Shown here piece after piece: positions 38,383-40,841 of a stretch of 41,464 nt of DNA. The first letter of the stretch is position 1. Every line of letters begins with the position of its first letter. Source of the DNA: Flavobacteriales bacterium (GTDB taxonomy: Bacteria > Bacteroidota > Bacteroidia > DT-38); the NCBI GenBank assembly GCA_013214205.1, contig JABSPQ010000397.1, positions 1 to 41,464 on the forward strand. Reading direction: 5' to 3'. Made by a program: the position numbers and the translations under genes. Under the pieces are notes generated by a model, which was not told the DNA's origin, searched no databases, and saw nothing but the letters and a program-made list of their open reading frames with translations.

Positions 38383-39474
38383 ATGAGTGTAGATATTAAA
38401 AGTTGGAGTAGAGAAGAAATTAGAGCGGTTTACGACCGTCCGTTGCTACAATTAATTTACGATGCCGCTGAGGTACATCGTGAGCACAACGACCCGCTGG
38501 AAGTTCAGGTGAGTAAACTTATTTCCATTAAAACTGGTGGCTGTTCGGAAGATTGTGGATACTGTCCGCAAGCTGCCCGTTACCACACAGGTGTGGAAGC
38601 CGTGCCATTAATGAGCATTGATGAAGTAAGGAAAGATGCTGAAGAGGCAAAAGCTTCTGGTGCTTCAAGATTGTGCATGGGTGCTGCTTGGAGAAACGTG
38701 CAGGAAGGAAAAGACTTCGACAACGTTTTAGAGATGGTAAAATTGGTTAATGGTATGGACATGGAAGTGTGTTGTACTTTAGGTATGATAACCGACGACC
38801 AAGCCAGAAGATTAGCGGATGCAGGTTTATATGCATACAATCACAATGTGGATACTTCTGAAGAATACTACAAAGAAATTATTTCGACAAGGGGATATGA
38901 CGACAGACTAAAAACCATTAAGCATGTTCAAAAGTGGAACATTGGTGTTTGCTCTGGTGGAATTATCGGAATGGGCGAAACAGTTGACGATAGAATCGGG
39001 ATGTTGCTTACATTGGTAAACTTATCTCCACAACCAGATTCAGTTCCAATTAACGCATTGGTTCCTGTTGAAGGAACTCCAATGGCCGAAAACTACAAAG
39101 TGCCAATTTGGGATGTTGTTAGAATGATTGCTACTGCTAGAATTGTTTTGCCACATGCATCTGTTCGTTTATCGGCAGGTAGATTAGAAATGAGTCAAGA
39201 AGGGCAGGCGTTGGCATTTATGGCAGGCGCTAACTCGATATTCGCTGGCGACAAACTATTGACTACTCCAAACCCTGAATTTAATCAGGATAAAGAATTG
39301 TTTGAAATTTTAGGCCTCAAGCCAAAAGCAGCCTTTAAAGATGGCGATCAGCCAGAAACAAAAGAAAGCTATAAAGAAAGCGGTGCTACCGAAAAGCCAA
39401 AATGGTCACGTCCAGCACATACTATCGATGCTAATATCGAAGCTTCTAAGAAGGGTAAGGAGGAAGCGGTTTAG
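38383..39474 (+). CDS. bioB: Biotin synthase
   Basis: BioB is a radical SAM enzyme that inserts sulfur into dethiobiotin. The 363-residue protein has the SAM cluster motif CxxxCxxC with Cys54, Cys58 and Cys61 ([19 protein letters not shown]), and further family blocks: [10 protein letters not shown] (about residues 105-114), [13 protein letters not shown] and [19 protein letters not shown] near residue 265 belongs to the second, [2Fe-2S]-binding region. The C terminus has an extra hydrophilic tail of about 35 residues rich in Lys and Glu. It stands alone with its own promoter and a strong terminator. Its product is the cofactor of the acyl-CoA carboxylase encoded earlier. Confidence 0.97.
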
Positions 39475-39498
39475 GTTTAATTAAGAAATTAGAGGGAA

Positions 39499-39531
39499 GC
39501 TCATTCGCCAACTGGCGAATGAGCTTTTTTT
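39499..39531 (+). terminator. Intrinsic terminator of bioB
   Basis: Perfect 11-bp stem GCTCATTCGCC (39499-39509) and GGCGAATGAGC (39514-39524), loop AACT, followed by seven T (39525-39531), 25 bases past the bioB stop. Confidence 0.9.
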
Positions 39532-39627: not shown

Positions 39628-40710
39628 ATGCATAAATCAGTCCTAGTAGCAATTTCATTAATTCTGTTCAGTATTGTGCTTCAGGCTCAAAACGTATACA
39701 TTCCCGATACAGCATTTAAGGATGCGCTCCTTGCGAAGCGTGCAATTAATTTAAATTCCGATGATGAAATTCAGTTGAGTGAGGCGGATTCCTATTCTGG
39801 CGGTCTTGATCTTTCGGATAGGGGGATAAAATATTTAACAGGAATTGAGGAGTTTACAATGTGTGAATCAATTGACTGTGGTTCTAATCTGCTTACTAAT
39901 TTAGATTTCTCAGGGAATTTAGGACTTAAAGATTTGGAATGCGGATTGAATCAGCTAAGCAGTATAAATTTGACCAATAACGATAGCCTGCGGTATCTGA
40001 GTTGTGGAAGTAGTGGATTGTCAGAACTTGATTTGTCGGGAAACACAATGCTCACCACTCTGTACTGTTCTAAGAATGAATTAACAAGCCTCGATCTTTC
40101 TAATAACCCTTTAATGGATCGCCTTTTTTGTGGGTACAATTCGATAACGAGTTTAGAATTCCCCAATAATCCAATACTTAACCTTGTAGAATGCTGGAAT
40201 AATTTTTTGACTAGCCTTGATATTTCAAATAACCCTGAGCTAACAATTTTAGGTTGTTACTATAACAGCCTAACAAGTTTAGATTTAACGAATAATATTA
40301 ATCTCTATAATCTCGACTGTGGTTCAAATCAAATTACAAGTCTCGATTTGACAAGCATTGTTAGTGACAACGCCCAGATTCGTTGCGATAGTAATCAATT
40401 AACAAGTCTTAATTTGAGTGGAGGGTATAGTTGTAGATTGGTTCGCAGTGACACAGCTAGATGCACGGCAGTTACACTTCATGCATTGGATAATCCTTAT
40501 TTGATGTGTATTCAAGTAGATGACTCTAGTTGGGCTGCAGATACAAGTAAATGTGGGGTTTGGTTAATTGGCTCTACAGCACATTATAGCGAAAGTTGTA
40601 CGGTGTTAGCATTGGAAGACCAGTTATTCCAAATACACTTTTTGCACCGCATCCCCTTCTTCAAAAGTCACTTTTACAAGATGGGTTCCTCTTTGAGGCA
40701 AGGTAATTAA
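39628..40710 (+). CDS. Secreted leucine-rich-repeat protein, 3' end replaced by inversion
   Basis: The protein has a Sec signal peptide (about residues 1-21, ISLILFSIVLQAQ), the N-terminal block VYIPDTAFKDALLAKRAINL typical of Bacteroidota LRR surface proteins, and about eight repeats of period 21 with the pattern LxxLxCxxNxLTSLDLSNN (about residues 70-265). A cysteine-containing cap follows, ending HYSESCTVLALED (residue 331, codon 40618-40620). The last 29 residues after that (to 40710) look random: they are the antisense reading of a T9SS sorting domain. The true end lies on the other strand (see 40624-40839). As it stands the product could enter the periplasm but lacks the tag for T9SS secretion. 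The authentic LRR part is 39628-40620. The TTAACAAGYCTYGAT-like DNA repeats follow the protein repeats. Confidence 0.85.
   Translation: MHKSVLVAISLILFSIVLQAQNVYIPDTAFKDALLAKRAINLNSDDEIQLSEADSYSGGLDLSDRGIKYLTGIEEFTMCESIDCGSNLLTNLDFSGNLGLKDLECGLNQLSSINLTNNDSLRYLSCGSSGLSELDLSGNTMLTTLYCSKNELTSLDLSNNPLMDRLFCGYNSITSLEFPNNPILNLVECWNNFLTSLDISNNPELTILGCYYNSLTSLDLTNNINLYNLDCGSNQITSLDLTSIVSDNAQIRCDSNQLTSLNLSGGYSCRLVRSDTARCTAVTLHALDNPYLMCIQVDDSSWAADTSKCGVWLIGSTAHYSESCTVLALEDQLFQIHFLHRIPFFKSHFYKMGSSLRQGN
40616..40620 (+). repeat. Left inverted repeat at the inversion border
   Basis: AAGAC, inverted copy of GTCTT at 40837-40841. With outward bases the match extends imperfectly: AGCATTGGAAGAC here against AGCTTATAAGAC on the minus strand at the other border. 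A separate small hairpin, TTGGAA (40613-40618) with TTCCAA (40627-40632), spans this border. Confidence 0.55.
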
Positions 40711-40836
40711 AGCAGAACCATTTACTTCGATTTGAGTTAACTGCTGTCCCATTAAGTTGTATACAAAGGCCGTTCCTACTGCTTTAATCGAGATTGAGTT
40801 GCCATATGCTGTAATCATTACTCCATGGGCTTCGCC
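40621..40836. other. 216-bp inverted segment carrying the T9SS sorting domain of the LRR gene
   Basis: Reversing these 216 bases joins codon GAC (40618-40620) to GGC GAA GCC from the minus strand in the same frame, and the reading runs 70 further residues to TAA (40626-40624). The restored protein has 401 residues: LRR part, LALEDGEAHGVMITAYGN, then the sorting domain. The segment is flanked by AAGAC and GTCTT. Whether it still flips is not shown by one sequence. Confidence 0.8.
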
Positions 40837-40839
40837 GTC
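40624..40839 (-). pseudogene. Detached T9SS type A sorting domain (3' part of the LRR gene)
   Basis: On the minus strand a 71-residue frame, bounded upstream by TAA at 40842-40840, reads DGEAHGVMITAYGNSISIKA, then FVYNLMGQQLTQIEVNG, LITLPQRGTHLVKVTF and ends AVQKVYLE. The pattern (strand, YNLMGQQL, short turn, LPQRGxHLVKV, basic end) is that of the C-terminal sorting domain that sends proteins through the type IX secretion system. It has no ribosome-binding site, no signal peptide and no gene body of its own, so it is read as the missing end of the neighbouring LRR gene. Confidence 0.8.
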
Positions 40840-40841
40840 TT
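40837..40841 (-). repeat. Right inverted repeat at the inversion border
   Basis: GTCTT, partner of AAGAC at 40616-40620. The minus-strand codon GAC (40839-40837) is in the same frame position as the plus-strand codon GAC at 40618-40620, which is why an exchange here keeps the frame. Confidence 0.55.

Follow-up and report, generated by a model that had tools for sequence, protein, structure and literature searches.

A 216-bp inversion has cut the C-terminal sorting domain off an LRR cargo protein of the T9SS. The window is the whole stretch of DNA analysed here (41,464 nucleotides), and it constitutes the entire contig C331 of a draft genome of 5.11 Mb in 464 contigs (97.35% complete, 2.84% contamination). 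The LRR gene is located close to the right end of this contig, where it follows bioB (38383-39474), and its open reading frame on the plus strand extends from 39628 to 40710 (360 aa). A perfect 14-bp inverted repeat with a gap of 2 nt, followed by a run of T, is found between bioB and the LRR gene at 39497-39526 and is probably the bioB terminator. The Pfam match for the LRR gene is LRR_4, with an E value of 7.5e-7 and a score over the cut-off. The signal peptide of the protein was called by eye alone. The features of the locus are as follows.

39628 to 40620, plus strand: LRR portion of the cargo gene, whose N-terminus by eye resembles a signal peptide, from the open reading frame, the Pfam LRR_4 match and LRR relatives in the same genome
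40616 to 40620, plus strand: left inverted-repeat arm AAGAC, 5 bp, from the border comparison
40621 to 40710, plus strand: 29 extra codons ending in a stop, where the frame enters the antisense of the sorting domain, from the end of the open reading frame at 40710 and the end of the paralog-like frame after 40620
40621 to 40836, no strand assigned: inverted segment of 216 bp, holding the sorting domain with its stop codon plus 3 nt, from re-inversion to a 401-aa frame collinear with ten paralogs
40624 to 40839, minus strand: T9SS sorting domain of 71 codons plus stop, from the frame, the TIGR04183 score (22.2 bits against a cut-off of 23), the paralogs and the predicted fold
40837 to 40841, plus strand: right inverted-repeat arm GTCTT, 5 bp, from the border comparison

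The initial annotation described an LRR frame that is natural up to position 40620 and then runs antisense to a frame on the minus strand, and the positions of the open reading frames and stop codons agree with that description. Re-inversion of the segment in silico reproduced the single frame of 401 residues that had been predicted for the joined halves. Ten LRR paralogs in this genome have an in-frame domain, and the re-joined protein is collinear with them; the collinearity extends across the C-x-x-VDD-x-x-W region, the conserved cysteine and the linker motif into the domain. The linker motif is LALED in the window gene and LGIE or LGVE in several of the paralogs. The re-joined linker, CTVLALED/GEAHGVMI with the slash at the break, aligns without gaps to paralog C165 (CATLGIENNHSIQPSI). 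The mean identity to the ten paralogs is 0.35 before the break and 0.37 after it, for a set that was composed of LRR paralogs with an in-frame domain and includes both C449 copies, which have stops further upstream; C238 (in-frame stop), C61 (contig end), C81 and cargo proteins devoid of LRRs were omitted. Because the two pieces are collinear with the paralogs and the identity is alike on both sides of the break, the LRR piece and the domain piece were once one gene. The equal identity also means that the turned domain is not visibly more decayed than the LRR half.

The minus-strand frame consists of 71 codons (DGEAHG...KVYLE) between the stop codons at 40842-40840 and 40626-40624. It is a T9SS sorting domain on the evidence of its paralogs and predicted fold, though its score against the curated profile falls just below the cut-off. 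The TIGR04183 score is 22.2 bits with an E value of 1e-4, and this profile is matched at E ≤ 0.01 by every one of the 15 members of domain alignment A1, among them the window domain. In the Pfam search, the sole match of the minus frame was unrelated and below the cut-off. The low TIGR04183 score and the lack of a relevant Pfam match are what would be expected of a chance open frame merely resembling a sorting domain, but this reading is extremely improbable in view of the paralogs and the fold. When the minus frame was used as the query against its own genome, 67 matches were obtained at E ≤ 10, and the best of these after the frame itself has an E value of 1.1e-10. A profile made from 14 paralogous domains of the genome, with the window domain left out, gives the window domain 63.8 bits. 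This value is the lowest of the 15 leave-one-out scores, the other 14 ranging from 73.0 to 105.1 bits, and the window domain departs from its paralogs at two nearly invariant columns. The low score and the two variant columns may reflect either decay or a divergent paralog.

The fold of the domain alone was predicted in five models. The best of these has a pLDDT of 90.3 and is all-beta, with the Ig-like beta fold of T9SS C-terminal domains; the other four have pLDDT values of 52.8-80.9. The top three PDB matches of the best model in Foldseek are the RgpB C-terminal domains 7pq4 and 5ag8 and chain D of 8gl8, the T9SS translocon with RemZ. The E values for these matches are 1.3e-3 to 1.6e-3, none being below 0.001, and the TM scores by query are 0.75-0.81. 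The sequence profile of the group also matches the C-terminal domains of Endonuclease I (8glk, 2.1e-6) and gingipain R2 (5hfs, 2.7e-5). At least 150 TIGR04183 matches are present in the genome (150 of the 362 candidates scored, the window domain not among them), together with the T9SS protein SprA. The initial annotation had named a match to T9SS type A profiles as a check; the TIGR04183 score itself falls just short, and the assignment is carried by the paralogs, the leave-one-out score and the fold. The window gene shares with T9SS type A LRR cargo (TIGR04183, Por_Secre_tail) a signal-peptide-like start, an LRR body and an RgpB-type C-terminal domain, and ten paralogs in the genome follow the same plan. 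In those ten the sorting domain is in frame at the C-terminus, whereas at the window locus it is antisense, on the opposite strand and outside the protein. That an inversion parted the T9SS sorting domain of an LRR cargo protein from its body, as originally proposed, is thus borne out by the collinearity with the ten paralogs and by the identity of the domain.

The border repeat AAGAC/GTCTT is perfect over 5 bp. Outward, 7 of 9 positions match, with two mismatches; inward, the 7 matching positions of 25 are scattered. Among 300 border pairs around the break, in all frames and over ranges picked by the analyst, a single pair has at least five matching bases; it lies at the inferred break and is in frame. 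Three other pairs have four matching bases, and all of them are out of frame. Throughout the region, 0.13% of border pairs have at least five matching bases, which corresponds to about 0.13 expected in 100 in-frame pairs. The in-frame match is therefore suggestive of microhomology, short of proof. By the same test, 20 of the 21 other sorting domains examined in the genome are flanked by a repeat of at least 5 bp; among the domains tested, C61 and C238 share sequence and do not count as independent. After shuffling of the flanks of 22 domains, that of the window included, a repeat of at least 5 bp is found in 84 to 100% of the shuffles. The chance repeats at the paralogous domains differ in sequence from the border repeat of the window, and the window flanks themselves hold a longer chance repeat of 7 bp, which is not at the break. 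The border repeat is a weak candidate for a switch site, its length being at chance level around such domains. According to the available text of PMC5903667, invertible sites have inverted repeats of 10-20 nt, and that of PMC11892184 gives 10-40 nt for invertons; the 5 bp of perfect repeat at the window locus lie below the inverton range of about 10-40 nt.

No match to Resolvase or Phage_integrase was found on the window contig (0 of 5 and 0 of 22 in the genome, respectively), and all of these matches are on other contigs. Four Phage_integrase matches are clustered on C280, three on C441, and two Resolvase matches with one Phage_integrase match on C183; C441 and C183 also bear LRR cargo genes. 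The locus is single-copy in its own assembly. Even when one mismatch is allowed, that assembly does not contain the alternative left junction, and the alternative junction gave no matches in genome_contigs, a collection that may omit near genomes. No second orientation was seen in the assembled sequences, which does not imply its absence within the sampled population.

The initial annotation suggested related genomes as a place to look for the same LRR gene with the domain in frame. In genome_contigs no ortholog was found, and the relatives obtained are five loci that are only 35-40% identical. Where the gene end lies within the sequence of these relatives, the C-terminal domain is in frame by eye (the first gene of L126, two genes of L127, and L129), and the same was seen by eye in L128, whose gene is divided into two open reading frames. 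The gene end falls outside the examined sequence for the gene of L125, one gene of L126 and one gene of L127. In the one same-genus genome that came out of the relatives search, G001, bioB is 87% identical and is located on a contig of 4,035 bases. No LRR gene follows bioB on that contig, where other genes are found; those after bioB resemble bioF, bioD and bioA (named by eye). LRR relatives elsewhere in G001 are at most 43% identical.

A second domain lying antisense within its own gene was not found at 20 loci of the genome, most of them picked for short frames. By eye, these loci display contig ends, frame breaks and transposase remnants, with too little upstream DNA for a judgement at C100 and C28; the domain match C180:251-460 (a short frame of 100 aa near the contig start) lies outside the inspected set. 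A screen of the class with the domain profile gave matches in at least 116 of 295 genomes, the present one included, with at most 21 candidates scored per genome. No inverted domain was found at the seven loci with the shortest open frames among the matches listed, the present genome being excluded; six are near contig ends, and G136 (157 aa) is on the same strand as its neighbours. The window case is the only inverted sorting domain seen among the loci inspected.

Cargo genes of the genome are also interrupted by stop codons. An LRR paralog at C238:21188-22279 (L026, L048) has a single in-frame TAG between the LRR body and the sorting domain, which makes it either a pseudogene of recent origin or an instance of readthrough. 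The cargo gene on C408 (L109:1137-2564) would be one open frame but for an in-frame TAA and TGA, and that on C453 (L112:2530-3234) but for an in-frame TAA and TAG. Internal stops occur in 4 of 31 LRR matches of the genome. Since the link between body and domain is also lost through stops, the inversion is not special in this respect, and ordinary gene loss is favoured.

The present arrangement probably arose through a single, recent inversion of 216 bp, which removed the tag from one cargo protein. It is unlikely that the locus is a reversible sorting-tag switch, in which a recombinase encoded elsewhere would flip the 216 bp so that surface-exposed and periplasmic forms of the LRR protein alternate. 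That reading rests mainly on the intact halves and the neat in-frame borders: turning the segment back gives a cargo gene in frame again, each half has kept an open frame and the same degree of conservation, the one border pair in 300 with at least five matching bases is in frame and coincides with the inferred break, and recombinases are encoded on other contigs. The intact coding of both halves thus fits a switch too, and both this and the neat bracketing of the domain by the breakpoints count against a one-off event. The border repeat, however, has 5 bp (7 of 9 with two mismatches) where 10-40 nt and 10-20 nt are given in the available texts of PMC11892184 and PMC5903667, the contig carries no Resolvase or Phage_integrase match, the other orientation was found neither in the assembly nor in genome_contigs, and the chance repeats at paralogous domains are of different sequence. 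A reversible T9SS address label operating through an unusually small 5-bp crossover site, with the LRR protein either displayed or periplasmic and transcription unchanged, is quite unlikely. The surface/periplasm switch advanced in the initial annotation was therefore not upheld, given a repeat at chance level, a contig free of Resolvase and Phage_integrase matches and only one orientation found; in addition, no other inverted domain was seen in the inspected loci, and the C238 paralog is parted by one stop codon.

An assembly or chimera artefact, in which the segment was turned during contig making and the living gene is intact, is likewise unlikely, though slightly more probable than the switch. 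The assembly is a draft in 464 contigs, the contig ends 623 bp from the right border, and an independent assembly of the locus was not found in the search of genome_contigs. Contigs C61 and C238 have near-identical ends (297 of 300 bases) with the same LRR-type sorting domain inside, and therefore this LRR gene family does break assembly. A 5-bp repeat is, on the other hand, below any usual assembly word; being too short to mislead an assembler, it suggests that both junctions should stem from reads. The locus is also present once, with no collapsed repeat, and the remaining genes of the window are intact in appearance (by eye).

For the preferred one-off inversion, the original gene would have encoded a normal T9SS cargo protein with a signal peptide, an LRR body, a short linker and a C-terminal sorting domain. 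A single 216-bp inversion would then have turned the domain, with breakpoints in the linker and just past the stop codon, at or near the 5-bp inverted repeat. The simplest cause that we infer for it is a single error of replication or repair, through template switching or microhomology joining. The frames of both halves remain open and conservation is the same in the two, so the inversion was presumably recent. In its present form the gene would yield an LRR product that ends in 29 foreign residues and lacks the sorting tag. The sorting domain being cut off in a genome that encodes SprA, this product is expected to reach the periplasm and not the surface. The proposal that the protein is made but kept periplasmic is thus consistent with the severed domain and the presence of SprA, while the localisation itself is what we infer from them. 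The effect would be the loss of function of one protein from a large cargo family in which further members are broken, and flipping back at a high rate would not be expected.

Intragenic invertons and gene-altering programmed inversions, reportedly the subject of Chanin et al. in 2024 and Milman et al. in 2023, are said to alter the C-terminus of the product. The window locus is like intragenic invertons in that inversion within a coding sequence gives the product a different C-terminus, and unlike them in that no repeat of the usual length, second orientation or acting recombinase is in evidence. Spacer inversion by template switching is described in the available text of PMC8604942 for yeast, where the arms exceed 9 bp and the spacers have a few bases. 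Like it, the proposed event would be an error of replication in which the DNA between two inverted repeats is turned round, whereas the window has arms of 5 bp and a segment of 216 bp, sizes at which the mechanism is not documented in that text. If the inversion is reversible, it would represent phase variation of the address of a protein and not of its expression; no phase variation of the address of a T9SS cargo is described in the titles and opening lines of abstracts of the papers listed by searches of an open-access library. If it is a one-off event, it would be a clean example of a small inversion untagging a secreted protein, in a genome rich in T9SS cargo genes, some of which are broken in other ways.
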